Below the pieces are notes generated by a model that had not been told where the DNA came from, did no database searches, and saw nothing but the letters and a program-made list of their open reading frames with translations. A DNA stretch of 40,830 nucleotides from Planctomycetia bacterium (lineage in GTDB: Bacteria > Planctomycetota > Phycisphaerae > Phycisphaerales > SM1A02). The stretch is taken from assembly GCA_005790565.1 (NCBI GenBank), contig SXUJ01000039.1, positions 1 to 40,830 of the forward strand. The letters are read 5' to 3'. The first letter of the stretch is position 1. Each line of letters starts with the position of its first letter. This document shows positions 2,881 through 28,022 of the stretch, piece after piece. Position numbers and translations under genes: made by a program.

Positions 2881-3287
2881 CCGAGCGGGTGCTTCTGGGG
2901 GAATCCTGTTCTCTCCAAGCGAACGAGAACCCCGTTTCCAACGCGCCGAAGGGTTATCTCGCTCTCTCGGGGAATCGGAAGCCAACTCGCCTGTTCGAAA
3001 CCTGTTTCGCTCGCCCTACTTCAAGAGTGGTTGCGAACAGCAGCCCTCGCCGAAAGCAAGAGAGACGCGTCCTCCACGAGGGCGCGTCTTTCGCTTTTGC
3101 TTGGGATTTCTGGGTTTGCATGCTTCGACCGAGTTCGCCTCTCGAGGGAGGGACATGACCGGCAGCTCACCTAACGAGCGGTCTCGGCGGTGTGCGGACC
3201 AAGCATCTCTCCCTCCTCGGCCGGCGATTAACCCCGCACTTATAGCGATCTCGGTCCTAATGGAGCGCTCGCGAAGGGGACCGCCCT
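2881..3287. other. Intergenic region between hepT and the metalloregulator
   Basis: About 400 bases with no supported gene. It holds the stem-loop at 3061-3091, which could end transcription from either side. Short open frames on both strands have no protein-like features. Confidence 0.6.
3061..3091. terminator. Intrinsic terminator, possibly bidirectional
   Basis: AGACGCGTCCTC at 3063-3074 pairs with GAGGGCGCGTCT at 3078-3089 around the loop CAC, with one G-T wobble. On the plus strand TTCGCTTTTGCTT follows. On the minus strand the tail is TCTCTTGCTTTC. It could end hepT transcripts (plus) or the regulator gene (minus, about 200 bases after its stop). Confidence 0.6.
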
Positions 3288-3950
3288 TCACGCAGACTCA
3301 CAAATGATGCTCTCCGCCGCCGCAACCGCCATGGTGACGGCGGCATATCCACTCGCATGCACCGTGATCGACTGCGCCGCGGATTCCGTCGCCGCGACGA
3401 TCGCTTTCGTCCCTGGCCGCAGCCCGTGCTCGGCGATGAAGGACAGAAACGCTGGCCCTTGGTCAGTGATACGCGCCACGCGAATCTTTGAGCCCGGCGC
3501 GAAGGTAGAGAGCGCCGCGCCGCGCTCAGTACGGATTTTCCCATCGGGTCCGGGGATTGGGTCACCATGCGGATCAACGCTCGGATGATGGAGATGAATG
3601 TCGAGGGCCTCGAGCACAACACTCGAAATGGCGTGCTCCAATCGCTCGGCTTCCGCATGCACGATCGACCAATCGAGTTTCAGAGTCTCGACGAGAAATG
3701 TCTCGATCAACCGATGACGGCGCTGCACATCGATCGCCGCGCGCTCGCCTCTCGCGGTCAGTCGCACGCCTCCAAACCGTTCATACTTGGCCAGTTTCGC
3801 ACCGGCCATCCGCTTCACCATCGTCGAGGCCGTCCCGACGGTGACGCCCGTCAGGGTGGCGATGGCTTTCATGCCGGCTTCGCCGGTGGGGGACTCACGC
3901 GAAAGCGAGTAGATCGCCTTCAGATAGTTCTCGATCGCTTCGCTCGCCAC
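3288..3950 (-). CDS. DtxR/MntR-family metal-dependent transcriptional repressor
   Basis: A 220-residue regulator: winged helix (SEAIENYLKAIYSLS, then TGVTVGTASTMVKRM as recognition region), dimerisation/metal-binding domain (HRLIETFLVETLKLDW, AERLEHAIS, HPSVDPHGDPIP), and a C-terminal FeoA/SH3-like domain from about residue 140. DtxR-family proteins bind Mn2+ or Fe2+ and then repress uptake genes; which metal applies here cannot be read. Longer TTG and GTG starts exist upstream (to 4028). GTG at 3950 is chosen because AGGAG lies 7 bases before it and the family usually begins just before ENYLKAIY. It is divergent from the outer-membrane protein gene, with a perfect inverted repeat between them that is a likely operator. 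Confidence 0.9.
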   Translation of the reverse strand: MASEAIENYLKAIYSLSRESPTGEAGMKAIATLTGVTVGTASTMVKRMAGAKLAKYERFGGVRLTARGERAAIDVQRRHRLIETFLVETLKLDWSIVHAEAERLEHAISSVVLEALDIHLHHPSVDPHGDPIPGPDGKIRTERGAALSTFAPGSKIRVARITDQGPAFLSFIAEHGLRPGTKAIVAATESAAQSITVHASGYAAVTMAVAAAESIICESA

Positions 3951-4012
3951 TTCACTACTCCTCACGGCTAGGGGTGCGCACAAGGCATTTGACTCCGGCG
4001 CTCGTCGCAGGT

Positions 4013-4032
4013 AAGTTTGAATCGTCAAACTT
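4013..4032. promoter_or_regulatory. Candidate operator of the DtxR-type repressor
   Basis: AAGTTTGA, four bases ATCG, then TCAAACTT: a perfect 8+8 inverted repeat. It lies in the 99-bp gap between the divergent regulator (start 3950) and the transporter-like gene (start 4050), only 18 bases from the latter's ATG and just before its GGAG ribosome site. Size and symmetry fit a DtxR/MntR dimer site. Binding by this regulator is inferred from position. Confidence 0.65.
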
Positions 4033-4049
4033 TTTGGAGCAAACTAGTC

Positions 4050-4955
4050 ATGTCACAGTTTTCAGGTCGTTCGAACTCATCGTATCGCATTCGCATGAGT
4101 GTATTCGTCCAACTCCTTCTACTCGCGTCCACCGGCGGCGGATGGGCTTATGCACAAAGCGAGACGAGCGTCGACAAATCGCAGTACACGCTGTTCAACC
4201 CAACTCCCGCTGAGTTGATGCGCCCGATGAGCACGGACCGACCAGACACGACTGAGAGCCCCTACACAGTCGACGCAGGCCACATTCAACTCGAATTGTC
4301 CTTCGCGGACTACTGGTCCGACAATGGCAGCGGCGACTCGCCATCCTCGCACGGATTTGCAGCCGCACCGATGTTGATCAAGGTTGGCCTGTTCAACGAT
4401 GTGGATCTCCAACTCGGCTTCGATCCGTACACGCGCGAGACCACAGACGATGCACTCGGCCAGGGTTCCAATACGATCGACGGGTTTGGGGACATCGTCG
4501 CCCGCCTCAAGGTGAACCTCTGGGGAAACGATGGCGGCACCACAGCCTTCGCCATCATGCCATTCATCGAGTTCCCAACCGCGAGCGGCGACGCCGGAAC
4601 GGGCAGCGTCGCGGGCGGCCTCATCGCCGTCCTCGGCGTTGAGTTACCGTACGAGTTCAGTTCGGCGTTCATGGTGGAGTTCGACTTCAATACCAACGAA
4701 ATCGATCGCCCCTACTTCGACGACCTTGTGCTCACCGCGACGGTGGGCCGAACGATCGTCGGTGACCTCGATGGCTACCTCGAGTACGCCGGCTTCATTG
4801 ATCTCGACGGAGATGGCGGTTACGAGGACTGTTTCGACGCTGGCTTGACATACGGACTTTCACCCGACATCCAACTCGACTGGGGTGTACGGATTGGACT
4901 CGCAGAAGCCGCCGTTGATCTTGGCATCTTCGCAGGGATCTCCGTGCGATTCTGA
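4050..4955 (+). CDS. Outer-membrane beta-barrel, MetA-pathway 'transporter' family
   Basis: A 301-residue exported protein. The signal peptide contains VFVQLLLLASTGGGWAYA and is probably cut before QSE. The mature part opens with MSTDRPDTTESPYTVDAGHIQLE, the hallmark of the 'phenol MetA deg' transporter-like outer-membrane family. Alternating amphipathic strands follow, ending in an aromatic C-terminus (GISVRF) as in many barrel proteins. Substrate is unknown; proteins of this family are only loosely annotated as transporters. Start ATG 4050 has GGAG at 4036-4039; an internal ATG at 4095 is less well placed. Its leader carries the candidate metalloregulator operator, so it may serve metal or metal-chelate passage. 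That role is inference. Confidence 0.8.
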   Translation: MSQFSGRSNSSYRIRMSVFVQLLLLASTGGGWAYAQSETSVDKSQYTLFNPTPAELMRPMSTDRPDTTESPYTVDAGHIQLELSFADYWSDNGSGDSPSSHGFAAAPMLIKVGLFNDVDLQLGFDPYTRETTDDALGQGSNTIDGFGDIVARLKVNLWGNDGGTTAFAIMPFIEFPTASGDAGTGSVAGGLIAVLGVELPYEFSSAFMVEFDFNTNEIDRPYFDDLVLTATVGRTIVGDLDGYLEYAGFIDLDGDGGYEDCFDAGLTYGLSPDIQLDWGVRIGLAEAAVDLGIFAGISVRF

Positions 4956-5071: not shown

Positions 5072-6910
5072 TCACGCTGGCACCTGTGCGATGCGACGCA
5101 GCGTGACCGACCTTACATTTGCAACCGCCTCGCCGGGCTTGGTCAGAGCACGCAGCACCAATGCATGCGCACCGGCGTCAAGCGTGATTTTCCCGAGAGA
5201 GACGGTTTCGTATTGCTGCCACCCGCCGGTCGCAGGCACGATGAACTCAAGATCACCCGACGGCGCCTGCAGTTTCATCTTGGCCCCCGCAGAAGCATCA
5301 GCGCAGGCGATCTCCATTTCAACCGCGTATTGCCCCTGCTGATCGCCATCAATCCCGATGGGGAAACTCACCGTACTGCTCTGGTCGAGCCAGTAACCGA
5401 GGTTGTACTTCACATTCTCAACCGCTCCGACTTGTTCAACGCGCAACGCTGTTCCGGTGAAACTTGCATCGTGGGGCCCGAATGTAGCCACGCCATTGCG
5501 CGCAGGAAACACGAGCAACGGAAGCGGCGACACATCGCTCGCGAGTTCGAGCTTCACCACAGAGCAACCAGAGCCGACCGCGTGATCGGGCAGTTGCACT
5601 TCGAGTCGCTCACGATCCTTCGCCGCACAGTGGAACGAGAGTTCGCCGTCGCGACCGAGCAGTCGAGCCGACTTCACCGCGCCGCGCATCGGAACGATGA
5701 GTCGTCCATCGCTTGGCCAGTCGAACACCATGAGATAGAGCGCGCCGGACTTCTGCGTCGCTCGGCCCCAGGGCAATCGCGCGAATGGACTCGCGGTGGT
5801 GCCGTAGATCGCTTCGGAATTCACGCGCATCCAGTCGCCCACAGCGTGGAGTGTTGCCTGCGCCTCTAGCGGAACAACTCCATGCGCGTCAGGTCCAACG
5901 TTGAGCAGTAGATTGCCGCCCTTCGACACGACATCGCACAGCAGTTGCACAACCACCGCTGGGTCTTTCCATCCCTTGTCATGCGCGCTAAAACCGTACG
6001 ACTCATTCAGCGTGTGATTGACCTCCCAGTCCATGCCGGGCAATCCCGTTGGCGGAACATACTTCTCCGGCGTTCCGTAGTCACCGTTCTTGTTTTCGAG
6101 TCCTTGGAAGAGTCGATTGTTGATGACGATGCCGCTCTGCTTCGTGCGCAAGTCGGACATCAGCTGCGCCGCGCCCCACGCGGCGCCTTGGTGTGCATGA
6201 TCGGAGTAGTCAAACCAGATCGTGCAAAGCGGCCCGTAGTTGGAGAGCAACTCATTCACATGACCGCGCACATACTCGATGTAGTTTGCGTGATCGCGTG
6301 TCCGCGCCGACTTGGCGTATGCAGGGAGCGCCATTTCGTAGGCGTCGGGATGTTGCCAGTCGAGAAGCGAGTAGTAGAAGCCAGGCCGCACACCACGCGA
6401 TCGCATCGACTCTGCAAACTCGCGTGCGAGGTCTCGATCAATCGGCGAAATGTTCGTGCTCTGCGTGACCGTGTTTGCCAGCGAATACGCCTGGTCGGAG
6501 TTGAAGAGCGTGAAGCCATCATGGTGCTTCGAGGTCAGGATCGCGTAACGCATGCCCGTGGACTTCGCGAGATCGGCCCACGCATCCGTGACAGCGACAT
6601 CAGGCACGAAGAGTGGCTTCATGGTGCGCGCGTACTCCTGGCACGGCACCGCCGCCCAATGCTGAATCCACTCGGCGTAGTGTTGCGGATAGATCTTTCC
6701 GTTCCAACTTCCACCTGCGCCAGAGTAGAGACCCCAATGAATGAACATCCCAAAGCGCGCGTCTCTCCACCACGCCATGCGATGCTCGCGGCTTGACGAC
6801 CAATGCGCCAACTCCTGCCGTTCATCGCTCGACTGCGATGCCAACCCCTTCTCGGCGGACACGCAGAACGCAAGGAGAGCACCACACACGCACGCGAGAA
6901 CTCGATTCAT
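5072..6910 (-). CDS. Secreted alpha-L-fucosidase, glycoside hydrolase family 29
   Basis: A 612-residue protein with a signal peptide (MNRVLACVCGALLAFCVSA). The GH29 barrel begins at about residue 45 with WWRDARFGMFIHWGLYS. KHHDGFTLF at 128-136 holds the conserved His pair of the sugar-binding site, and the nucleophile is Asp234 in CTIWFDYSD. After the barrel (to about residue 380) a beta-sandwich is followed by a C-terminal module that resembles carbohydrate-binding domains. The enzyme removes terminal alpha-L-fucose from glycans outside the cytoplasm, as expected for a degrader of algal or mucin polysaccharides. The start at 6910 is used because the upstream frame is low in protein character and this Met begins a clear signal peptide. 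The gene stands alone and faces the outer-membrane gene. Confidence 0.95.
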   Translation of the reverse strand: MNRVLACVCGALLAFCVSAEKGLASQSSDERQELAHWSSSREHRMAWWRDARFGMFIHWGLYSGAGGSWNGKIYPQHYAEWIQHWAAVPCQEYARTMKPLFVPDVAVTDAWADLAKSTGMRYAILTSKHHDGFTLFNSDQAYSLANTVTQSTNISPIDRDLAREFAESMRSRGVRPGFYYSLLDWQHPDAYEMALPAYAKSARTRDHANYIEYVRGHVNELLSNYGPLCTIWFDYSDHAHQGAAWGAAQLMSDLRTKQSGIVINNRLFQGLENKNGDYGTPEKYVPPTGLPGMDWEVNHTLNESYGFSAHDKGWKDPAVVVQLLCDVVSKGGNLLLNVGPDAHGVVPLEAQATLHAVGDWMRVNSEAIYGTTASPFARLPWGRATQKSGALYLMVFDWPSDGRLIVPMRGAVKSARLLGRDGELSFHCAAKDRERLEVQLPDHAVGSGCSVVKLELASDVSPLPLLVFPARNGVATFGPHDASFTGTALRVEQVGAVENVKYNLGYWLDQSSTVSFPIGIDGDQQGQYAVEMEIACADASAGAKMKLQAPSGDLEFIVPATGGWQQYETVSLGKITLDAGAHALVLRALTKPGEAVANVRSVTLRRIAQVPA

Positions 6911-7503
6911 GCAGGCAACATATCGGCTTGAGCAGCGAGCGCGGCGCTGCGCAGCGCAAAGAGGGTGGCGCACTGTGGCCTAGCCGGCACTTCCCGGCTT
7001 ACCCAGAGATTCCCAATCCCTTGACGAGCAACCCCCGCGAGAACTCATCGATCCCGCGCCCAAGATCGCCGCACTGCCGTGCGCACTTCGCGGGATTCTC
7101 GCCTCGCTCGGTCTCGAAGCCGCCACCGCCACGCAACTCGGACGCAGACTCGAAGCTCACGAAGCCCTCCTTTGGAGATCCATCGATTCGAGCTCGCCGA
7201 GAAGCATGATCGCGCGGGATTGCATTCCGCGATGCTGGAATCGCGCGGGTGGGATGCGCGGTGTACCACACACGGACGCCAGCCCGAGAACCGGGATTCG
7301 ATCAATCGGCCAATCGCGCCTTCCCACGCCTGCAACCAGCAACCCACGATGGCTGGCGTCACGCGCGGGACTCCGTTTGGCACCGCACTCGACGACGACA
7401 GCCGCTCGCGGGTCATGGCCGGACAGACGCCACTTCTTCAACGCTTCTCGTCTCATAGAGACGACCTCCGGGACGTACCGCTACGGATCGGTGCAAGCGC
7501 GAG
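6911..7503. other. 593-base gap with no confident gene
   Basis: Lies between the fucosidase start and the end of the MetK-like gene. Two stretches look weakly protein-like: a minus-strand frame 7157-7456 (99 residues, with HDPRAAVVVECGAKRSP and VLGLASVCGTP) and a plus-strand frame at about 7020-7210 with no start codon (DPAPKIAALPCALRGILASL). They overlap, so at most one can be real, and neither has a recognised family. The first could be a fifth, poorly conserved gene of the minus-strand operon; the second a decayed gene. Confidence 0.3.
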
Positions 7504-8661
7504 TCAACCAGTTGGCGATCGCATCGGCGCTAGGTCCGCGCACTCGCCTTCGACTGGCATCCCCGCCTCACACCAGTGCCCCCAGCGTGCGACTTCGACC
7601 AGGTCGCGACCCTCAAGCCATCGCGCACGACTTGCGAGGCGCAGATCGACACCTTGCGCAATCTGCTCTGCGTCCATCGGAATGCGATTCTCGGCTTCGA
7701 TTCGCACCACACGAAACGCACTTTCGCCGGGACAGATACCGAGCGTGACGAATGCCTCTCGGCATCCATGTCGCTGCACTGCCTTCACCGCGAGTTCGCG
7801 CGCGATCAGTGGACCTGCGCGATCAACTCTCCAAAAGTCCTTCCCACTCATTGCGCCTCCGCCGATGGGAATACGAGGGCCATAGAAGTCGACGACGAGT
7901 TTTTTGCCGGACAACCCGTTGTCGCTCATCGGCCCGCCAACGCCGGCCCATCCGTTGCCATTGAGTTGCGCGCACACATCCTTGGCGCATCCAAATCCTG
8001 GCACGATGCGGGAGAAGCGCTCGAGCGCGTGATGCAACGCGACTTGCAGGCGATGCACATCTTCCGTCGACGTGCTCGCCGCCCAATGTTCGATTGAAAC
8101 GCTCAGCGCGTCGAGTTCCCAGCGCTTCCCGTCCGGCGACTCCTTCACGAAGACGATCACCTTCCCATCCTGGCCATAGTTGATCGGATTACCGCGCACG
8201 AATCCGTGAAGGGCTTTCGCGAGGTGGCGTGCGAGTGCGTGCTCGACAGGAAGGTAGCCAGTTCCCGGCGTGCTACACGCGTACCCGGTCACGATCGATT
8301 GATCGTCGGAGACGACCCTGAGCTCGGATTCATCTCCTTCGAGCGGACCTCGACAGAGATCCGTGACGACATTGAGTTCGCTCAACTTCGGTTGCGACGA
8401 CTCGCTGTACCCCGCACTTCGAAAGACCCGTTGAACGAGCGAACGCACGCGAATGCGCTCCGTGTTGTGACCCGCAATGCGCCCCGTGAGGAAGACGCTC
8501 TTGCGAACGAGCGCGACTTCGATTCCCACAAGCGCGCGGGGGTCCTTCTCCCACGCGGCCTGCACGATTGCATCCGCGATGGCATCGCTGAGCTTGTCAG
8601 GATGACCAGGCAGGACCCACTCCGCTGCGCGCAGTGTCCAAGCCGATGAGCGGAGATTCAT
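7504..8661 (-). CDS. Divergent S-adenosylmethionine synthetase (MetK) homologue
   Basis: A 385-residue protein, about the normal MetK length. Recognisable blocks in order: GHPDKLSDAIADA (residues 19-31, active-site His20), GIEVALVRK, DDQSIVTGYA (119-128), GQDGKVIVF, VGGPMSDNGLSGKKLVVDFYG (241-261) and GGGAMSGKDFWRVDR (267-281). Against E. coli MetK the ATP-binding histidine, metal aspartates and the Lys of SGKD are kept; the Arg of GLTGRK is Lys and the second Lys of the GGGAFSGKD-PSK block is Arg278. MetK makes S-adenosylmethionine from methionine and ATP. Its place as last gene of a MoxR/vWA operon is unusual and suggests a specialised rather than housekeeping role. ATG 8661 overlaps the vWA stop as ATGA. 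Confidence 0.88.
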   Translation of the reverse strand: MNLRSSAWTLRAAEWVLPGHPDKLSDAIADAIVQAAWEKDPRALVGIEVALVRKSVFLTGRIAGHNTERIRVRSLVQRVFRSAGYSESSQPKLSELNVVTDLCRGPLEGDESELRVVSDDQSIVTGYACSTPGTGYLPVEHALARHLAKALHGFVRGNPINYGQDGKVIVFVKESPDGKRWELDALSVSIEHWAASTSTEDVHRLQVALHHALERFSRIVPGFGCAKDVCAQLNGNGWAGVGGPMSDNGLSGKKLVVDFYGPRIPIGGGAMSGKDFWRVDRAGPLIARELAVKAVQRHGCREAFVTLGICPGESAFRVVRIEAENRIPMDAEQIAQGVDLRLASRARWLEGRDLVEVARWGHWCEAGMPVEGECADLAPMRSPTG

Positions 8662-10031
8662 AGTGCGCCCTCCGGAATCACCATCCACTCGTTGACGTAC
8701 GGCGCAAGGTCTGCGCGCGACGAATGATGTGCCGGTAGCGCCACTCCAATCGTGGCTTCTTGCATGGCCTGCGCGAGTTCTCCTTGAATTCGTCCGACGA
8801 AACCGTCGGTCACAATCACGGCGCGCTTGATTCTGTTCTTCTTGATGTGCTTGGCAACACAACTCAGGGCTGTTCCGCCCGTCGTCTGTATTGCGCCCGC
8901 GCGCAGCTCTCGCATCGAAACATCACAAATCTCGGTCGAGAAGAGGTGAATCTTAGGATGCACCGACTCCGCGCAATCACAGATGGCAGCGCAGAGGGGC
9001 GCAATGACGAAATCCATACTGCCCGAAACATCCATGTAGACATGCACTAGGCCACCATCCGATTGCATCTTTCGCTGCGCTCGCTGATGCGTGAAGAGCA
9101 GCGGCGTACCGCCGAGTGCGCGAAGCACGATCTCGCGGCGAGCGGCTGCTCCACACGGCGACCGCGCTTTGCAATGCACGATCGAGCGACGCCGAACGCT
9201 CCCGCCACACTCCGCCTGGCCAATCTTCTTCAGTATCCCGCGCAGCACTGCTCGCTTGGTTGGTTTGATGAGAAGGCGCATGGACCTCAAGGATTCGCCG
9301 ATCGACTTCCCTGGCAGAAAGTCGTCCGCAGGCCATTGATCAACGATCGATTCCACGAGTGATTGCAACGCTGGCGCGTCGTTGAGGCAAGAGTCCAACG
9401 CCTCCTCGTGATTTCCCAGCAGCATGCTGACAGTCAAGCCGTTGGGTCTTGCATCTTCCTGCAGCACCTGTCGCAATTCACTGTAGGTGCTACCCACGGT
9501 GTACAACTTTCGATGCATGGCGGCGAGTTCGGGAAGGCGCAGCAACGCCAACGGCGTCACGGCTTGCGCGCCGGGCGCCCAGCCTGCCGCCGGACGGAGG
9601 AAGCACTGCAGCGGATCGCGTTCGTCGTACATGTCGCGAAACAGTGCGGTGTACGCGGGGCCAGGATGCGCATGACACAGCATCGCGTTGATGATCGCAT
9701 CGAAAACAAAGTTGTCGAGGAGGTTCGCCCTCGGGAAGAGACGCGTGTGACCAAGCACGATGTGGTGCAACTCATGGAGGATGAGCATCATCAGCTTCTC
9801 CCTCGTGTTCGCATGTTTCGCACAGAACTCAGGATTGACACGGAGCGTGGAGTACTCGCCGCATGTCACACACGCGGTGGGAACACTCGTCGACTCTTCA
9901 ATTGCGATGAGTCGGAGCATCGCCGCAACGCCATAGTGCCCAAGCGGAACGGACTCCAAGATCGATTGCAGGAGCATGCCACTCGAAGCGGCGGGAAAGG
10001 ACGGGACAGCGATCGTGGAAGCGGCGTGCAT
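8658..10031 (-). CDS. Metallopeptidase-like/von Willebrand A fusion protein
   Basis: A 457-residue protein. The N-terminal part (about 20-140) holds MLILHELHHIVLGH, an HExxH zinc motif with a further His at +9, like the putative metallopeptidase part of DUF2201-type proteins. The C-terminal part (about 325-457) is a vWA domain with a complete MIDAS: DVSGSM (334-339), GGT (385-387) and TDG (408-410). Proteins of this design usually partner a MoxR AAA+ ATPase, encoded two genes upstream here. No signal peptide, so cytoplasmic. ATG 10031 has GGGAG 8 bases before it; ATG 10037 (forming ATGA with the previous stop) or ATG 10055 are alternatives. It overlaps its neighbours on both sides. Confidence 0.85.
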   Translation of the reverse strand: MHAASTIAVPSFPAASSGMLLQSILESVPLGHYGVAAMLRLIAIEESTSVPTACVTCGEYSTLRVNPEFCAKHANTREKLMMLILHELHHIVLGHTRLFPRANLLDNFVFDAIINAMLCHAHPGPAYTALFRDMYDERDPLQCFLRPAAGWAPGAQAVTPLALLRLPELAAMHRKLYTVGSTYSELRQVLQEDARPNGLTVSMLLGNHEEALDSCLNDAPALQSLVESIVDQWPADDFLPGKSIGESLRSMRLLIKPTKRAVLRGILKKIGQAECGGSVRRRSIVHCKARSPCGAAARREIVLRALGGTPLLFTHQRAQRKMQSDGGLVHVYMDVSGSMDFVIAPLCAAICDCAESVHPKIHLFSTEICDVSMRELRAGAIQTTGGTALSCVAKHIKKNRIKRAVIVTDGFVGRIQGELAQAMQEATIGVALPAHHSSRADLAPYVNEWMVIPEGAL

Positions 10032-10033
10032 GT

Positions 10034-10576
10034 TCATTTCTCCCTTGGTTTCCAATCATTTGGGACGGCGAGGGTCAACTCGCGTGCGAGTCGAGTCGGT
10101 GTGTAGATCGGCGGCTGAGAACGGATGAAGACTTTGTCGGTGCAGCGAGCCAGCACGGGAAAGGTGCGACGAAGATCCGGCCACGCGTCACTGGTCACCG
10201 CGGGCGCACCGACAACGAGGCACACTGGAACAATCAAGGGCAACGCATTGACAAGCGACAGATCCTCGGCGCTCGTTTGCAGGACCTCGCACAATGCCCC
10301 CGCAGTCGCGACCATTGGAATGTTCCAGAGGCGGCAGAATCTCGCAATCGCCGCCGTGCCTTCCACGCGCGTCGCCGCGTAAGTGCGCTGCCGATGCATA
10401 CCCAAGGCATCGATCAGTTGATCGTGGTCGGTCGGTGTGCCCTCCACCTCGATGAACGCCGTTCCACGAATGACGAATCCCGTACGGACGCCGGCCCCTC
10501 TCGCATTGAGCGGAACCCTCACGGGACCCATATTGCGCAGCGCTGACGCGCCCCTCCACTCGGGAAGTTCACGCAT
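10034..10576 (-). CDS. Unrecognised 180-residue protein in MoxR/vWA operon
   Basis: I do not recognise a family. The protein is soluble, with no signal peptide or membrane helix. Visible blocks are GVRTGFVIRGTAFIEVEGTP, DHDQLIDALGMHRQRTYAA, and a hydrophobic strand-like stretch LPLIVPVCLVVGAP. A C-terminal IYTPTRLARELTLAVPNDW follows. ATG 10576 overlaps the end of the MoxR gene by 8 bases and its stop overlaps the vWA gene, so it is translated within the same coupled set and is likely part of the same complex or pathway. It could be the component that recognises the substrate of the ATPase, but nothing in the sequence shows this. Confidence 0.75.
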   Translation of the reverse strand: MRELPEWRGASALRNMGPVRVPLNARGAGVRTGFVIRGTAFIEVEGTPTDHDQLIDALGMHRQRTYAATRVEGTAAIARFCRLWNIPMVATAGALCEVLQTSAEDLSLVNALPLIVPVCLVVGAPAVTSDAWPDLRRTFPVLARCTDKVFIRSQPPIYTPTRLARELTLAVPNDWKPREK

Positions 10577-12056
10577 GCGATGCCCTCGCTTGAAGGCGCG
10601 CGAACATCGATTTGTAGTCCGCGACGATCTGACCAAGTGCTTGCATGGAAGAACATTTGCCCTCGCTCCACAGCCTGAGCAGCAGGTTTTGGAGCGGAAC
10701 CATGACCTCCCTCGGTTCGCTTGCGCCACTCGTCGCCTTCAGGATCTCCGCGAACGCCAACTCTTGACTCGAGCCCTTCTGCGATTGCACGCTCACCGAA
10801 CAGCTCATCTCGGCTTCCCCAACGAGCACGCCAACCTGCTCGGCGATCGCGGGGTGGAAGTGCGCGACCGACGGGTGGTGTGAGATGGCGATTGCAACGA
10901 GGTGCCGCGCGCCGAGTCCGCACGAAGCCAAGGCATCGGCGACATACGCAGATCGTTCGTGCGCCGCGAGTGACTCGACTTCAAGCGCGAGGAAGGCGCG
11001 ACTCACCGGATCCGCCGCTTGAGCGAGCAACCGACGCGGATCAGCGCGGTCCATCGCGACCAGACCACAAACTCGGCGGTGCGCAAGTTGCATCCTCCCC
11101 TCATCCACGACCGCGCCCCATGCTCGATCGGGAATGGTGTGTTTGAGCGCGATCCATGCGCTCTCGTCCATCTTGAACTGCGCGCTCAAGGTCCAACGAG
11201 CCGCGTGCATGCTCAGCACGGCGTCACGCAGCATTACCGCACGGCGCGCGGACAAATGCAATCCCATCGCGACGAGTTCGAGGGCGATGAGTTGCACATA
11301 CTCGCAGACCCATGCCTTGAAGGCGCCCTCGACAAAGAGAAGGCGCTCTCGCACGAGTTTCACCATGGCGGCGATCGCGAGCTTTGCCTCTGGCGAAATC
11401 TCAGTGATGTTCAAGCCGACGAGCGCGAGGCGATCCGCTTCGCTGAAGTCCCGCCAATGCGGCATTTCGACAACGAAGGGGAAGCGATCCGCAAGCGCGA
11501 TATCGAGCGATTCACTCCCGAGATACTCCGATGCGTCGCTCCCCGCGCTCGAGTCAGTCGGCGGCGGATTCATCGCAGCCCACCGATACTCCAAGCCCGC
11601 GAGCGGAATGCCTTGGATGCACTTCTCATGGATGATCGGGAAGCACTTGTTCTGCATTTCCGGTCGGCATCGCGAGATTTCATCAAGAAACACAGCCTGC
11701 GCGCCCCACACGCTTGCGGGCGTCTGCACGAATCTCAGCGAACCCGAGGCATCGGGCAGCGGATATCCCACGAGGTCGTCGTAGTTGAGCAGGCTCGCGT
11801 TGTAGTGTCGAAACGAAAGGCCAAGCGCCTCGGCAAGCCGGGCGAGGAGGAGGCTCTTCGCGGTCCCATGCGCGCCGATGAGGAGAATCGGCGCCTTCGT
11901 CGCGAGCGCGGCGAGGATGACTGCATCGAGTCGATCCACGCCAATGATGCCGAGTTCCCGAAGGAAGCGAGTGGGCACGGTCGGCGGGGAGTCGTGTGTT
12001 GGCGCGATCTGCTCTCTCGTTGCGGTGCTTACGGTCGTGGCCACGGGGACTCCCAT
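10569..12056 (-). CDS. MoxR-family AAA+ ATPase
   Basis: A 495-residue ATPase. Walker A is GAHGTAKS (61-68), Walker B AVFLDEISR (121-129), sensor 1 is the Asn in WAAMNPPP (159-166), and LADRFPFVVEMP follows where the arginine finger region lies. NYDDLVGYPLPD is the MoxR-typical segment after Walker A. The C-terminal 200 residues are mostly helical and probably form the lid and a partner-binding region. MoxR ATPases remodel or activate target proteins together with vWA proteins. This is the first gene of the operon. ATG 12056 is used; a longer GTG start at 12164 exists with no better ribosome site. The three iterons at 12205-12247 lie upstream. Confidence 0.88.
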   Translation of the reverse strand: MGVPVATTVSTATREQIAPTHDSPPTVPTRFLRELGIIGVDRLDAVILAALATKAPILLIGAHGTAKSLLLARLAEALGLSFRHYNASLLNYDDLVGYPLPDASGSLRFVQTPASVWGAQAVFLDEISRCRPEMQNKCFPIIHEKCIQGIPLAGLEYRWAAMNPPPTDSSAGSDASEYLGSESLDIALADRFPFVVEMPHWRDFSEADRLALVGLNITEISPEAKLAIAAMVKLVRERLLFVEGAFKAWVCEYVQLIALELVAMGLHLSARRAVMLRDAVLSMHAARWTLSAQFKMDESAWIALKHTIPDRAWGAVVDEGRMQLAHRRVCGLVAMDRADPRRLLAQAADPVSRAFLALEVESLAAHERSAYVADALASCGLGARHLVAIAISHHPSVAHFHPAIAEQVGVLVGEAEMSCSVSVQSQKGSSQELAFAEILKATSGASEPREVMVPLQNLLLRLWSEGKCSSMQALGQIVADYKSMFARLQARASHA

Positions 12057-13079
12057 GGCATCAAGCTGGTGGTCAGCTCCGAACGCACGCGTCCAAGAAT
12101 GCACGGTCGTTTCTGCTTGAGCGGCAGCCTTTGAAGGCCACCCTAGGCAGACCCAACCAGACACTCATCCACGCGTGCAGTTCGAAAAGGGTTCGTCCGA
12201 GCAGGATGCTCGAGCGCCACGATGCTTGAGCAAGACGATGCTCAAGCAATTTGCGTCAACACGATTCGACCGAAAAAGTCGGAAAAATCAGGCCGCCGCA
12301 TCGTTCCCCCTTCGGGGCTGCCTCGGCACCGTGCGCACTGCGATTGAGCAGATGGGTCGGTTGCCGTTCAGACAAGAGGCTGTCTGAAACTCTTGATGCC
12401 GCGAGGACTGTAGCACCGTGATCGCAGCTCGGCAATGAAATTCTTTGGGGTTCGTACCTCCACATTCATCGCCTCGGTCGAAGGCAATCACCCTGACGCA
12501 AACAACCACGAACCGCGAGGGCCGGCCTCAGCGCAAGCAACCTCCACGCGCTGAGAGTCAAGTCCGTCTACTTCGACGACGCAGGATCAGTCTCGGCGGC
12601 AGTTCGAGCTCCAGAGCCAGACGCCCGTGGCAATACGCTCCATTGAACGCGCCCCCCGCCGGCGAGTTCAATAAGATTGTGTGGTTCGATGCATGCCCAG
12701 CGTAGGTCGTTGCGCTCGCAAACGCGTTGCGCCTCGAGCTGCTCGTCGGAACCGATCGTCGCGACTTGCTCCGGCAAGGGAAGAGCACCGTTCCCTCGAT
12801 GCGTGCGCGATGCGGCTTCCCGCGAGCGCGGGAGCAACGGCGAGTTTCAAACTCTTCGCTCGAATCCGACCGATCGCTTCTGACGATTCGTCAATGAGCC
12901 GGAACCCATCCCGTCCCGACGAACTGTCCGGACAGAAAACGCCCTCGCAACAACCGTTTCTTTCGGGTTTTCCTTCGCTCCATGTCCCCTCGCGCTCGCG
13001 CCTTGCCAAGCAGATCGCACGCGCGGACCGTTCCGCCGCGAGTGTTCTATTTGTTGTCCGTTGTTGAAAGGTGCGATTG
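12057..13079. other. About 1 kb between operon start and RCC1 gene
   Basis: No confident gene. The left part is the probable control region of the minus-strand MoxR operon, with the iterons at 12205-12247. A minus-strand frame 12568-12837 (89 residues, containing EQVATIGSDEQLEAQRV and RWACIEPHNLIELAGG) reads like protein but has no recognised family and a poor N-terminus. It may be a small hypothetical gene or a remnant. Confidence 0.4.
12205..12247. promoter_or_regulatory. Three 11-bp iterons at 16-bp spacing upstream of MoxR operon
   Basis: GATGCTCGAGC (12205), GATGCTTGAGC (12221) and GATGCTCAAGC (12237) share the consensus GATGCT-Y-R-AGC and recur at exactly 16 bases. Copies two and three also form a perfect 10+10 inverted repeat (TGCTTGAGCA / TGCTCAAGCA, six bases between). 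The array lies 149 bp upstream of the MoxR start used here. An operator for a repeat-binding regulator is the simplest reading. Confidence 0.6.
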
Positions 13080-22824: not shown

Positions 22825-24228
22825 ATGAAAACCTCACACATTCTCTCGGCACTCGCCCTCGGCACCTCCGCGATCTTCATCGGTCAACTCTCGGCAACCG
22901 CAAGCGGGACTCGCGGCGGCGATGGCGGCACCGCGAGTGTTGGCGCAGATGTCATCGTCGGCGCCATCCCGAATGTCTCGAAGTACGGCTCGGTCGTGGT
23001 CAGCGGCCAGACGATCATGTCCTACTCCATCGGTACGACCAGTTGCAACATTGGCACCGCACCACTTGAGTGGTTTGCATCACCGGACAATCGGCATCCC
23101 TTCATCCCGATGAATGCGTTTCGACTGAAGAACGGCCGCTTCGAACAGATCGGCATGAGCTGGGGCAAGCATGGATTCACCGCACTCCAGCAGACGCTTT
23201 GCGGCGCGTGTACGGCACACCCGAATGGAACCTACCTCGGCGTTGGATGCTCCGATCCATACAGCTCGGGTTTGAATGGAAGCCAAGGCGGACTCGGCAC
23301 ACGCAGCGAGGTGAACGCCGCGACCGGAACTTTCCCCGGCAGCATCAACGCAGGAATGCCCTCTGCAGCGGCGACGATTGGTCGTCGATTGCAAGTCAAC
23401 GGCAGTGACTTGGATCCGGCACTCAACGCAGGAGCCCAGTATTTCTTTGAGGCACAGTATGTGCATCAACAGGATGCCACCGTCGGCAACAAAAACAACA
23501 ACGCCTCCTACCGCTCCTTTACGGTCGGCACACTCACGAGCGGCGCATACACGCTGGCGCTTACGGGTGGAACGATTCAACAAAAGGCTGCAATTCAAGC
23601 GTGGCCAGGCCTCGATCCAACCGCAACCGTCGCGACGGTCGACATCGCCAACGATGGACGGTTTTTCGTCGGCTGCACCGCCAAGGACAATGGCAATGGT
23701 ACTTGGCGCTACGAGTATGCCATCCACAATCTCAACTCCGATCGATCCGCGCGCGGATTTTCCGTTCCGATTCCCGCCGGCGTGGTTGTCACGAACGTTG
23801 GCTTTCACGATGTGAACTATCACTCGGGTGATCCATCACTCCCAACCGACTGGACCAACAGCCTCGCGAATGGCGCGCTCACATGGAACTGCGGAACCTA
23901 CGCCGCAAGTCCGAACAGCAATGCGATTCGATTCGCGACGATGTACAACTTCTGGTTCGATGCGAACCAAGCACCCACGCCGGTGAACGGTTCGATTGAG
24001 TTGTTCAAACCAGGTGGCGCCGGCGCGCCAACTTCGGCGCCCGCTGCAGTGCGAGGCCCGAGTGCGCCCGCATCGGACCCCGCAGACTTGAACGGCGATG
24101 GTGCCGTGGGTGGCGCTGATCTTTCGATCCTGCTGAACAACTGGGGGACCTCAGGCGCAGGCGACATCGACGCAAACGGAGTCGTGGATGGCGCTGACCT
24201 CACCGCTCTCCTGAACGCATGGGGCTGA
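22825..24228 (+). CDS. Secreted dockerin-type protein of unknown function
   Basis: A 467-residue exported protein. The signal peptide SHILSALALGTSAIFIGQLSA is followed by a long strand-rich body, with blocks such as ADVIVGAIPNVSKYGSVV, SCNIGTAPLEWFASPDNRHP, LYGVGC-like cysteine segments, and WRYEYAIHNLNSDRSARGFSVP. The last segment resembles fibronectin-like or lectin-like domains of planctomycete exoproteins, without a certain family. The tail carries DLNGDGAVGGADLSILLNNW and DIDANGVVDGADLTALLNAW, two dockerin-type calcium loops. A strong terminator follows at 24264. Start ATG 22825 begins the signal peptide. Confidence 0.8.
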   Translation: MKTSHILSALALGTSAIFIGQLSATASGTRGGDGGTASVGADVIVGAIPNVSKYGSVVVSGQTIMSYSIGTTSCNIGTAPLEWFASPDNRHPFIPMNAFRLKNGRFEQIGMSWGKHGFTALQQTLCGACTAHPNGTYLGVGCSDPYSSGLNGSQGGLGTRSEVNAATGTFPGSINAGMPSAAATIGRRLQVNGSDLDPALNAGAQYFFEAQYVHQQDATVGNKNNNASYRSFTVGTLTSGAYTLALTGGTIQQKAAIQAWPGLDPTATVATVDIANDGRFFVGCTAKDNGNGTWRYEYAIHNLNSDRSARGFSVPIPAGVVVTNVGFHDVNYHSGDPSLPTDWTNSLANGALTWNCGTYAASPNSNAIRFATMYNFWFDANQAPTPVNGSIELFKPGGAGAPTSAPAAVRGPSAPASDPADLNGDGAVGGADLSILLNNWGTSGAGDIDANGVVDGADLTALLNAWG

Positions 24229-24263
24229 CGGGTCCCGCGGCTTTTCTGGTTTACATGCACCCG

Positions 24264-24299
24264 CCACGCACCGATTTCGATCGGTGCGTGGTGCTTTTT
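24264..24299 (+). terminator. Strong intrinsic terminator with TTCG loop
   Basis: CCACGCACCGAT and ATCGGTGCGTGG form a perfect 12-bp stem closed by TTCG, followed by TGC and five T. It ends the dockerin-protein gene 36 bases after its stop codon. Confidence 0.92.
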
Positions 24300-24474
24300 G
24301 AACACTGCGGCAGCGCCTCTCGCACCGAAGACCGCGCGTGCATCCGGCGTTCGAGTGGGAATCCCCCTCGGGAAGGCAATGTTTGTGAATCATGGCACGA
24401 TCCTTGCATTCTCCCAGAAAAAGCGTGAGATACAGAGGTCACTCGCCTACAACCAATCACGGAGGCATTGCTTC

Positions 24475-26532
24475 ATGACGAACAACACAAAGACGGTGGG
24501 GATCCGGAACATTGCGCTTGTCGGTCCGGCTGGTGTTGGGAAGACATCACTGCTCGAAGCGTTGCTCTTCGAGGCAGGCGTCACAAAAAAACTCGGGACT
24601 GTCGAGAACGGGGACACGGTCGGTGATCACGATCCGATCTCGCGCGACCTGGGACATTCCATCGAAACATCCTTAGCACATCTTGAGGCGCACGGCGTGC
24701 ACCTCAACATCATCGACACCCCGGGCTCGATGGACTTCTTCGGGAAAACAACGAACGCGCTGCAAGCTGCTGACCTGGTGGTGCTCGTGACGGATGCGCG
24801 GTCGATGCATGATCCAGTCCTTCGTCGCGTTGCGAGGCTCGCCGAAGAGCGGAGCTTCCCGCACATGATCGTGGTGAACAAGATTGATCGCGAGGAAGAC
24901 ATGCGCCCCGTGGTCTCGGCGCTCCAGGATCTCTTTGGAGCCGCACTACGCCCGATTGATCTTCCACAGGATCACGGTCATGCCGTGGTTGACTGCTTTG
25001 AAGCAGATTCTGGCACCAGCGACCTAGGCCCGGTCGCTGGTTTTCACTCGGGCGTGATTGACCAAATCGTGGAGGTCGACGAAGCGCTCATGGAGCGCTA
25101 CCTCAATGACGGGGCACTCCCCCCGCTCCCACTTCACGACGCATTTGAGAAGGCGCTGCGAGAGTCGCACCTTGTTCCCCTCGCGTTCTGCTCGGCTCGT
25201 GACCGAACTGGAGTGCGGCAATTGCTCGCGGATTTCATCGCGCTCGCGCCCTGCCCCACCGAAGGAAATCCTCGGCCGTTTACGCATGATGCCGACCGTG
25301 GGGAGAACTGGAAACCAGAATCAAATCCCGCACTCCCACTCGTCGCGCATGTGTGGAAGATCGCGGCCGATCCGTATGTTGGGCGACTCGCGAGCATTCG
25401 TGTGCATCAAGGCACGATCGCCAAAGATATGGCCGTGCACATCGACGGGCAGAAGAAACTGATTCACATCAAGCACCTCTACCGTGCGCAGGGCAAGAAA
25501 CTGATTGAAGTGGACCGGCTTGGCGCGGGCGACATTGGTGTTGTGTCAAAGCTCGAAGAACTGCGCACCGGCAACATCCTGCACGATGGCCGCGTCCCAA
25601 TCGGGCTCCACCTCAAGGGCATTGATGTTCCGACTCCAATGCAAGGCCTCGCGATCGAACCGACCATCAAGGGCGCGGAAGCCAAGCTGAGCGATGCGCT
25701 GCACAAACTTATCTTGGAGGATCCTGCGTTCGAGGTTGCGCATGTCGCATCGACCGGCGAAACCGTCATCCGCGGCATGGGCGAGTTGCATCTTCGAGTG
25801 ATCGTGCGAATGCTCGCCGAGAGATTTGGCGTCACGATCGAATCGCGCCCGCCTCGCATCCCTTATCGAGAGACCATCACTGCGAAAGCAGATGGACATT
25901 GTCGACACAAGAAACAAACCGGCGGCGCTGGGCAATTCGCGGAGGTGTTTCTGCGGATCGAACCGATCGCGGATTCGGAGGCGGATCCGCAAGGGCTCGA
26001 GATGGCGGACGAGACATTCGGCGGAAGCGTTCCGCGCCAGTTCTTCCCTGCCATCGAAAAGGGTGTTCGTCAGGCGATGAGTTCTGGAGTGATCGCTGGC
26101 TACCCCGTTCGAGGGATCAAGGTGAGCATCTACGACGGCAAGACGCATGCCGTGGATAGCAAAGAGATCGCGTTCGTTGCGGCTGGTCGAAAGGCATTCC
26201 TCGATGCGTTCAAGAAAGCAAGCCCTGTGCTGATGGAACCATTCGTCGAATTGGAAATCACCGCGCCGACCGATTCGCTCGGTTCAGTCGCGGCTGACCT
26301 CTCCGGGCGACGCGGGAGGATTCTCGACACGCAGTCGCTCGCGGGAGATACCTCCGTCGTCAAGGCGCAAGCTCCACTTGCCGAGGTCGCCACCTACGCC
26401 AACACGCTGAAGTCCATGACGCGAGGCACGGGGTCCTTCATCATGGAGTACAGCCACGATGACTTCGCGCCCGCAATCGTGCAGCAGCAGCTCATCTCCG
26501 CTTGGAAGCCGCACCACGATCAGGATGACTAG
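24475..26532 (+). CDS. Elongation factor G-like GTPase
   Basis: A 685-residue translational GTPase of the EF-G-like (EF-G2-type) branch. G1 is GPAGVGKT (17-24), G3 DTPG (81-84), G4 NKID (135-138), and the G5 region has FCSARD. The G2 stretch reads SRDLGHSIETSLAH rather than the RGITI of canonical EF-G, as in the EF-G-like subfamily. Domains II to V follow, including GMGELHLRVIVRML, QTGGAGQFAEVFLRIEP and GRRGRI. It may act in translocation or ribosome rescue, or be a slow paralogue; a canonical fusA is expected elsewhere. ATG 24475 has GGAGG at 24461-24465. Strong start and length evidence. Confidence 0.92.
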   Translation: MTNNTKTVGIRNIALVGPAGVGKTSLLEALLFEAGVTKKLGTVENGDTVGDHDPISRDLGHSIETSLAHLEAHGVHLNIIDTPGSMDFFGKTTNALQAADLVVLVTDARSMHDPVLRRVARLAEERSFPHMIVVNKIDREEDMRPVVSALQDLFGAALRPIDLPQDHGHAVVDCFEADSGTSDLGPVAGFHSGVIDQIVEVDEALMERYLNDGALPPLPLHDAFEKALRESHLVPLAFCSARDRTGVRQLLADFIALAPCPTEGNPRPFTHDADRGENWKPESNPALPLVAHVWKIAADPYVGRLASIRVHQGTIAKDMAVHIDGQKKLIHIKHLYRAQGKKLIEVDRLGAGDIGVVSKLEELRTGNILHDGRVPIGLHLKGIDVPTPMQGLAIEPTIKGAEAKLSDALHKLILEDPAFEVAHVASTGETVIRGMGELHLRVIVRMLAERFGVTIESRPPRIPYRETITAKADGHCRHKKQTGGAGQFAEVFLRIEPIADSEADPQGLEMADETFGGSVPRQFFPAIEKGVRQAMSSGVIAGYPVRGIKVSIYDGKTHAVDSKEIAFVAAGRKAFLDAFKKASPVLMEPFVELEITAPTDSLGSVAADLSGRRGRILDTQSLAGDTSVVKAQAPLAEVATYANTLKSMTRGTGSFIMEYSHDDFAPAIVQQQLISAWKPHHDQDD

Positions 26533-26740
26533 CTCGCGTGTCGATCGATTCGAGGCGTGCAGGGCAGCTCGGGAAGCCGCACCGCGCCGGTTGGAGACAC
26601 CCTTCAGGAATCCACTTCATCCACCCGTGAGTCCCATTGACGAGGGTGCGCTCATCGGACCAATCCGATGCGCGTTGATGCGTCGTCGCCGCCCCCTCCA
26701 TACCTCGCGGTGCCGAAGTGCGACGCGCGATGCATACGAG

Positions 26741-27151
26741 TCAACTCGTGTACTGGAACTCGATGGGTGCGTGAATGTCAGGATGCAGACTTGCATGAAC
26801 CGGACAGGTGTGCGCTGCCTGCTCCAACGCTTCCCGCTGTGGATGGCTTGATGCAATCGGCACGCGAATGACTGTCGTCAAGCTCGCGATGCGGCGTGGA
26901 AGATCTTTCGACATCTCTTTGATCGTGCGCGCTTGCATTCCCGTGAGTTCGATGTTGTGGCGAGCCGCGACAATACCCATGATCGTCATCATGCAAGTGG
27001 GCAGCGCCGCCGCGACGAGGTCGGTCGGTGAAAACGCCTCGCCCTTCCCATGATTGTCCTTGGGCGCGTCGGTACGAATCGAGGACTGCGAAGGTGCATG
27101 CGCAGCAGAGCATCGCAGAGAACCTTCGTACACAGCGTTCACTTCAACCAT
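26741..27151 (-). CDS. OsmC/Ohr-family protein
   Basis: A 136-residue protein. SPTDLVAAALPTCMMTIMGIV carries the first conserved Cys and HTCPVHASL the second; these form the redox pair of OsmC/Ohr thiol peroxidases, which reduce organic hydroperoxides. The helix and strand order around TRAIKEM-like and RIASLTTVIRVP fits the family. ATG 27151 (MVEVNAVYEGSL) is used because GGAGG lies 5 bases before it; upstream residues of the longer frame are not conserved-like. It is divergent from the methyltransferase with only 40 bases between starts, so the two share a promoter region. Confidence 0.9.
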   Translation of the reverse strand: MVEVNAVYEGSLRCSAAHAPSQSSIRTDAPKDNHGKGEAFSPTDLVAAALPTCMMTIMGIVAARHNIELTGMQARTIKEMSKDLPRRIASLTTVIRVPIASSHPQREALEQAAHTCPVHASLHPDIHAPIEFQYTS

Positions 27152-27191
27152 GGGAACCTCCAACGAAATCATACGCGCGTACAGTGTGTTC

Positions 27192-28022
27192 ATGTCCGCT
27201 TCTGCGAATCAAGACTATGTCCTCGGAACACATGCGGCCGAGCGCGATCGGCTCACCTTTCAGCACTCACTCTGGATTGACGAAGCACGGTCCGCGTGGC
27301 AGCGTTGCGGTTTGCGAATGGGTGGTCGCGTGGCCGATGTCGGTTGCGGCCCTGGACTCGCGACCGCCGCGCTGCTGGAAGAGGTCGGTCCCACAGGCAC
27401 CGTTGCGGGCATCGAACTTTCCGAGAGGTTTGTGGAGCAAGCGCGCGAACGATGCGCCGAGGGTGGTCGAAGCAACTTCGAGATTCTGCAGTGCGACTTG
27501 ATGACAGAGGCGCTCCCCGCTCGATTCCAACATGCGTTCGATGTCGCGTGGGTTCGGTGGCTCGCGATGTTCGTGCGAGATCCCAACAAACTGATCGCGC
27601 AGGTGAGCGAACTCCTCGCGCCGCAAGGAACACTTGCGATGCATGAGTACTACGCCTACGAGACCTACTCGATCCTCGGCGGGTCAGTGCGTGTCCGAGA
27701 GTTTGTGCAATTCGCGATGCAGAGCTTCGCACAGGGAGGCGGTGATGCAAACATCGCCCGCCGACTTCCTCAGATACTGTGCGATCAGGGGTTTGAGATC
27801 CTGTCCACGCGCCCCATCGCCCGAGCGGCACGCCCGAGCGAACGACTCTGGCACTGGCCCGCGGGTTTCATCCGCACCTACACGCCCACGCTCGTGAACC
27901 TCGGCCTCGTCTCAACCGAATGGCAGCACGAAATCGAGGAGGAACTTGCGAGTGCCGAGGCGAATCCAGCCTCAGTATTCATCGCACCAAGCGTTCTTGA
28001 GATCGTCGCTCGAAAGCGATAG
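27192..28022 (+). CDS. Class I SAM-dependent methyltransferase
   Basis: A 276-residue protein. Motif I is VADVGCGPGLATAALL, motif II-like GTVAGIELSERFVEQAR, and post-motif blocks are FEILQCDLM and LLAPQGTLAMHEYYAY. The N-terminus DYVLGTHAAERDRLTFQHSLW resembles UbiE-like small-molecule methyltransferases. The substrate cannot be read. ATG 27192 is used because the upstream part of the longer frame runs antisense through the OsmC start. It is followed 30 bases later by the HutD-family gene in the same direction, possibly one transcript. Confidence 0.85.
   Translation: MSASANQDYVLGTHAAERDRLTFQHSLWIDEARSAWQRCGLRMGGRVADVGCGPGLATAALLEEVGPTGTVAGIELSERFVEQARERCAEGGRSNFEILQCDLMTEALPARFQHAFDVAWVRWLAMFVRDPNKLIAQVSELLAPQGTLAMHEYYAYETYSILGGSVRVREFVQFAMQSFAQGGGDANIARRLPQILCDQGFEILSTRPIARAARPSERLWHWPAGFIRTYTPTLVNLGLVSTEWQHEIEEELASAEANPASVFIAPSVLEIVARKR

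Follow-up and report, generated by a model that had tools for sequence, protein, structure and literature searches.

Why would a MoxR-type ATPase share an operon with a homologue of S-adenosylmethionine (SAM, or AdoMet) synthetase, and what would switch such an operon on? The question is raised by four minus-strand genes at positions 12056..7504 of contig SXUJ01000039.1 from a Planctomycetia bacterium, analyzed here as a stretch of 40,830 nucleotides (the window). The genes encode a MoxR-type AAA+ ATPase, a small protein called X, a protein in which a zincin-like part is fused to a von Willebrand factor A (VWA) domain, and a MetK-like protein. We propose, with a confidence that falls a little short of even, that they form a SAM-responsive accessory operon, in which a MoxR/VWA machine induced by SAM shortage would mature or reactivate a special AdoMet-synthetase homologue. 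A riboswitch leader at 12402..12295, absent from an earlier note on this DNA, strengthens the link to AdoMet that the note had suspected. The features of the operon are as follows.

12402..12295, minus strand: SAM-I/IV-type riboswitch aptamer in the 5' leader of the operon (RF00162, 27 bits, with covariation)
12294..12205, minus strand: leader 3' of the aptamer, a putative expression platform (hairpin and tandem repeat)
12056..10569, minus strand: MoxR-type AAA+ ATPase, 495 amino acids (AAA_5, E 1.7e-9)
10576..10034, minus strand: protein X, 180 amino acids, no family
10037..8658, minus strand: fused zincin-like and VWA protein, 459 amino acids (DUF2201_N and VWA_CoxE sub-threshold; invariant motifs)
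8661..7504, minus strand: MetK-like protein, 385 amino acids (S-AdoMet_synt_N and S-AdoMet_synt_C above cut-off)

Consecutive genes overlap by 8, 4 (ATGA) and 4 (ATGA) bases, which confirmed the stop-to-start arrangement described in the earlier note. An alternative GTG start of moxR at 12164 is likewise open. A scan for sigma-70 promoters returned no match above chance.

A Recurrent Four-Gene Unit

The earlier note had suggested seeking the same gene order in other Planctomycetota. With the MetK-like protein as the query against genome contigs, we detected 16 loci, and the contig scan combined with whole-genome searches gave a complete set of the four genes in 20 distinct loci. The relatives are mostly metagenome-assembled genomes (MAGs), in which neighboring genes were called with a simple open reading frame caller. 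The MoxR-X-VWA-MetK order is unbroken in every complete locus and is not peculiar to this genome. Five further loci (G059, G096, G198, G276, and G130) comprise MoxR, a gap of 0.5–0.9 kb, VWA, and MetK-like genes; X appears too divergent for detection there. No additional flanking gene was common to distant loci. The genome of the window contains the full module once more, on contig C161 (L004). Two diverged copies were found in G445:C7 (L103/L104; 6349-10852 and contig 23146-27704). They are oppositely oriented, about 12 kb separates them, and each has a riboswitch of its own. Genes for UvrD- and RecD-like helicases follow the second of these copies.

For MoxR, VWA, and MetK-like, the pairwise protein distances correlate with one another (r 0.89–0.93 over 17 loci; reached in 0 of 2000 permutations), part of this correlation being shared host ancestry. 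A unique or chance cluster of unrelated genes is extremely improbable and was ruled out, because the invariant order and the stop/start overlaps recur in independent loci and the divergence of the proteins is correlated across them.

The Leader RNA

Rfam matched the SAM riboswitch family RF00162 at 12402..12295 (E 0.0013; score 27 bits, where the gathering score is 44.4). RF01725 or RF00162 was also matched upstream of moxR, at the corresponding place and strand, in 14 of 19 other leaders. A model built from 14 leaders, R1, scores the window leader at 100.5 bits, by construction since that leader is in the model, and also finds the leaders in G438 and G570, both outside the model. In total, 19 of 20 leaders have the RNA at this place (the window and 18 of the other 19, including the model members G008 and G448), with G096 as the sole leader of the 20 without a SAM-I/IV-type RNA.

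The aptamer is laid out as P1, P2 with a loop pseudoknot, P3, and P4. In alignment A7, 96.8% of the cells are paired, as opposed to 30–39% in slid controls, and 12 pairs show compensatory change. The compensatory cells number 44, compared with a shuffled mean of 15.8 (0 of 500 shuffles), and two pairs of the P2-loop pseudoknot covary. It is P2, P3, and the pseudoknot that supply the covariation, since P1 and the core barely vary and contribute none. Across the 14 leaders, little or no change is seen in the core segments, which read GCAUC.AGA, GGCAACCGA or AGCAACCGA, ACGGUGC, and GAUG. The RNA resembles the SAM-I and SAM-I/IV riboswitches (RF00162, RF01725) in its core motifs, P1-P4, pseudoknot, and the methionine genes that it precedes in relatives, and differs from them in scoring below the gathering thresholds and in driving a MoxR-VWA operon. 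These observations indicate that, as far as its sequence can tell, the leader RNA is a divergent SAM-I/IV-type riboswitch. We know of no description of a SAM-type riboswitch ahead of a MoxR-VWA operon.

The R1 RNA was present in 23 of the 25 module genomes and in 18 of 156 others (Fisher p 6e-16); in the genome of the window, it is confined to the two module copies. Within the family and order, R1 leaders precede methionine-biosynthesis genes in G037, G003, G033, G017, G456, G028, and G490; the genes behind R1 leaders include Cys_Met_Meta_PP (cysteine/methionine pyridoxal phosphate enzymes) and aspartate kinase–homoserine dehydrogenase. An above-threshold RF01725 match is located about 600 bp upstream of the canonical metK in G059. 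Because relatives of the RNA precede methionine-biosynthesis genes, its ligand is likely SAM.

On the 3' side of the aptamer, the leader contains the hairpin TGCTTGAGCA-TCGTCT-TGCTCAAGCA, the arms of which have changed together in the relative L145 (TGTTTGAGCA / TGCTCAAACA). A 16-bp tandem repeat of 2.8 copies at 12205-12249 can fold into a 10-bp hairpin, and this region is possibly the expression platform.

The same RNA type was observed in other settings. In G562 (L214, G562:C4:13000-21500), a match of 57.8 bits, lacking the usual AUC.AGAG segment, is located about 375 bp ahead of an operon of another kind (L214 2961-8459, minus strand), which encodes an AAA+ protein, a DUF2201 zincin-VWA protein (PF13203, E 7e-30), an FGase-like protein (PF05013), and a 484-residue protein. 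Equally strong leader matches were obtained in G554 and G563. The DUF2201 and MoxR pairs have the same domain pair as our module, and the G562 operon also shares its leader RNA type, with the FGase-like and another protein in place of X and the MetK-like protein. SNF2/SWIM helicase genes directly follow R1 matches in L205 (G431:C175, 7849-10615) and L206 (G024:C1, 11507-13546), on the minus strand in both, and the helicase gene in G431 is followed by a gene for a 239-residue protein. A second conserved element, with a SAM-II-like look, lies upstream of moxR in L156 (G096, around 640-700) and L162 (G059, around 565-640). Its P1 reads GUCGCC/GGCGAC versus AUCGCCC/GGGCGAU, followed by ...GCUAAAG. 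This element had no Rfam match, and in G096 it occupies the place of the missing SAM-I/IV RNA.

The MoxR, Zincin-VWA, and X Proteins

The MoxR protein contains a Walker A motif (GAHGTAKS), a Walker B motif (LDE), a sensor N, and an LADRF arginine finger, all invariant in 11 relatives, and the best PDB match of its family profile is RavA (E 0.0014). The VWA protein stays below threshold in Pfam (DUF2201_N, E 0.002; VWA_CoxE, E 1e-4). It carries the zincin motif HE[LM]HH..LGHTR and a metal ion-dependent adhesion site (MIDAS), DxSGS...T...TDG, in which HE(L/M)HH, DxSGS, and TDG are invariant in 11 relatives. The best Foldseek matches of its AlphaFold2 (AF2) model were the NorD chains of NorQD (E 5e-4), over the VWA part only, and the structure search also returned VWA folds. 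With RavA and NorD as the nearest solved relatives, profiles and model support the MoxR–VWA pair that the earlier note had predicted. In L044, the VWA gene (3232-4803) has an internal tandem duplication of about 63 residues across the MIDAS segment, either real or an assembly artefact. Protein X has a conserved C-terminal motif, RC..xF(I/L)R...P. It was assigned to no family, with DUF6410 sub-threshold at E 0.009, and its AF2 model (mean predicted local distance difference test score, pLDDT, 68) had no PDB match.

NorQ-NorD, RavA-ViaA, and CbbQ-CbbO likewise encode a MoxR AAA+ protein and a VWA partner in one operon. Compared with them, the module adds a zincin fused to the VWA domain, X, a MetK homologue, and a SAM-type riboswitch, and no respiratory or Rubisco client was recognized near it. 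Pairs of this kind are known to remodel a partner enzyme encoded with them or to supply it with metal (NorQD, PMC13036017; CbbQ/CbbO, PMC4660213; PMC9976466). Because such pairs act on a partner enzyme, we propose the MetK-like protein as the client.

The MetK-Like Protein

In Pfam, the MetK-like protein clears the cut-offs for the N and C domains of the S-AdoMet_synt families and narrowly misses the one for the central domain. It shares with MetK (TIGR01034) the three-domain plan, the catalytic His14, and the ATP/triphosphate residues, but misses the equivalog cut-off (133.6 bits versus 309.4), by which it is not a canonical MetK; its identity to canonical MetK is about 30%. We compared the sites of 32 MetK-like rows, some of them near-identical, with those of Escherichia coli MetK (L144) and 25 canonical MetKs of relatives. 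His14, Asp16, Asp118, Asp163, Lys165, Asp238, Lys245, Lys265, and Asp271 are kept in 32/32 rows. In contrast, Glu55 is replaced by Arg in 31 rows and by Leu in one, and Gln98 is gone in all 32, where the gap position is uncertain but the loop is without any Gln; both residues are conserved in 25/25 canonical relatives. All MetK-like rows have Pro for Ile302 and Lys for Arg244, and the family has its own E...R...DDQ loop.

In the E. coli methionine adenosyltransferase (MAT), Glu55 contacts the amino group of methionine, and Gln98 and Lys269 contact the carboxyl group (PMC3853416, PMC1282579). Judged by its residues, the MetK-like protein retains the ATP/triphosphate site and has an altered methionine site. 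The catalytically plausible AdoMet synthetase of the earlier note therefore stands for the ATP/triphosphate half, whereas the methionine-binding half, with Glu55 and Gln98 gone, does not follow the canonical design. The loss of these two residues means that AdoMet production is not assured; SAM synthesis could nevertheless take place, because archaeal MATs are active although they also lack Glu55 and Gln98 (PMC3853416).

The altered pocket might also serve a new substrate. The MetK-like protein would then make a non-SAM adenosyl compound or adenosylate a protein such as X, while the task of the machine would be metal insertion or processing of the target. The Arg at Glu55 (31/32), the missing Gln98, the Pro at Ile302, and the E...R...DDQ loop beside an intact ATP site are consistent with this idea, as are the invariant HExxH and MIDAS motifs. 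However, the SAM-type riboswitch ties the operon to SAM itself, and archaeal MATs hold methionine with other residues, and we consider a new substrate quite unlikely.

The MetK-like gene is not the only metK of its genome, a possibility that the earlier note had raised. The housekeeping gene is separate and canonical, split exactly at the ends of contigs C54 and C124 (join GLTGR/KIIVD), and a canonical metK accompanies the module in the genomes checked. This co-occurrence would allow the MetK-like protein to act as a regulatory or decoy subunit in mixed oligomers with the housekeeping MetK, assembled or disassembled by MoxR/VWA according to the SAM supply. In a MAT dimer, each subunit provides Glu55 and Gln98 in trans, across the interface, to the site of the other; a mixed dimer would accordingly combine an impaired site with an intact one. 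The strict conservation of the ATP/triphosphate residues would be needless in a mere decoy, though, and an identity of about 30% to canonical MetK leaves mixed dimers uncertain; a decoy role thus seems decidedly improbable.

Metabolism or Defense

The VWA protein was detected in 25 of 181 genomes and 7 of 45 genera of the same family, a patchy spread. The carriers of the four-gene cassette are freshwater planctomycetes; the congener G001 is without a match to the module, and some module copies have internal stops. Two loci lie on contigs titled Chloroflexi and Thermoflexus; we did not take record titles such as Singulisphaera or Thermoflexus as taxonomy. Among 201 genomes sampled from the phylum of the Chloroflexi contig, the one match was the query's own. 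Transfer of the module between phyla is likely, provided that the MAG titles are right (the second contig, L051/G572, is assigned by its title only). We found no copies of the VWA protein in the viral contigs, phages, or plasmids searched; the plasmid MetK matches were 29–31% identical, and those listed were mostly annotated as ordinary metK.

Phages such as T3 evade restriction by removing SAM and disabling MetK. The T3 SAMase degrades SAM and traps the host MetK in filaments (PMC8406200). Because T3 destroys SAM and traps MetK, a loss of SAM could signal infection, and the module could be a phage-defense cassette in which phage-induced SAM loss opens the riboswitch and the machine restores SAM or harms the infected cell. 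The patchy distribution, the extra copies, some with stop codons, and the loci on contigs titled Chloroflexi would fit this role, as would the same RNA ahead of the SNF2-helicase operons in G431 and G024. Clear defense genes near the module are suggestive: DISARM DrmABC 2.4 kb from it in G059, HEC-01A directly after the MetK-like gene in G130, and PDC-S41 near it in G448. However, these account for only 3 of the 18 neighborhoods examined. PADLOC families numbered 124 among the neighbors, against 11 weak ones among 106 control proteins drawn from other parts of mostly the same genomes, but many of the 124 trace to one DISARM locus. Moreover, the leader RNA type also regulates metabolism, and phages and plasmids yielded no VWA protein. 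We regard a phage-defense cassette as unlikely. A mobile conflict system with the SAM riboswitch as its sensor also appears rather unlikely; there, a collapse of SAM, caused by a SAM-destroying phage or otherwise, would open the switch, and MoxR/zincin-VWA with a repurposed MetK would restore or replace the methyl donor or make a new adenosyl signal. If true, an RNA metabolite sensor would guard against viral anti-restriction.

Membership in a known anti-phage system was ruled out, as PADLOC matched none of the four proteins. The MoxR-vWA ternary conflict systems (PMC7159879) are alike in joining MoxR and vWA with further parts, in occurring in planctomycetes and chloroflexi, and in being patchy. 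Four subsystem types are described in that paper, with no mention of MetK or DUF2201. Pfam and NCBIfam scans of the four proteins, among which the fold of X is unassigned, detected no VMAP, inactive STAND, FtsH, or beta-propeller, and the bpMoxR Pfam model stayed below its cut-off (19.2 bits versus 27); the absence of these components ruled out the four types. The four-gene combination was not described in the literature searched, which covered few subscription papers. The combination therefore belongs to no named system that we found, in agreement with the earlier note. The conflict or stress system that the note put forward is a candidate reading: what is seen of the regulation speaks in the first place for SAM shortage, and the neighboring defense genes are no more than suggestive.

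Flanking Genes

A gene for an alpha-L-fucosidase with a carbohydrate-binding module (window 5072-6973) adjoins the four genes. Its counterpart in G003 is 77% identical and lies about 6 kb from the module, and it is without a close match in G001, a genome also without the module. A DUF2924 protein (PF11149, E 5e-37) is encoded at 1412-1915. The DUF2924 family is a frequent neighbor of site-specific recombinases, and the window may consist of mobile DNA at its low end.

Proposed Working of the Operon

SAM riboswitches usually turn genes off at high SAM. Because they normally repress when SAM is plentiful, the four proteins are expected when SAM is scarce. In the accessory-operon reading that we prefer, the leader would sense SAM, the probable ligand, and switch in this usual direction. 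As SAM falls, the block on expression would be lifted, and the four translationally coupled proteins would be made together. MoxR and the zincin-VWA protein would form a remodeling machine of the NorQ-NorD, RavA-ViaA, or CbbQ-CbbO kind, with the co-encoded MetK-like protein as the most likely client and X as a possible adaptor. The machine would mature, load, or reactivate the MetK-like protein, which may transfer the adenosyl group from ATP to give SAM via the altered methionine pocket, or a close analogue.

Several points weigh against this scheme. The loss of Glu55 and Gln98 would speak against ordinary SAM synthesis, and the Rfam scores of the leader in relatives (22.6-39.7 bits) are sub-threshold in every case. 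SAM binding by the leader and the interaction of MoxR, VWA, and X with the MetK-like protein are putative, being predicted from sequence. The patchy spread, degenerate copies, and defense-gene neighbors suit a conflict role better than plain metabolism. Finally, MetK need not be the only client of the machine, because the G562 leader precedes a MoxR-DUF2201 operon without MetK.

MoxR–VWA machines occur widely, and for most of them no client or trigger is known. This operon offers a candidate for each, the SAM level, read through the leader RNA, as the trigger and an altered AdoMet synthetase as the client, and MoxR–VWA function becomes testable in a four-protein system. The conserved substitutions suggest a branch of MetK with a redesigned methionine pocket, and the riboswitch may possibly serve as an alarm for SAM-depleting phages.

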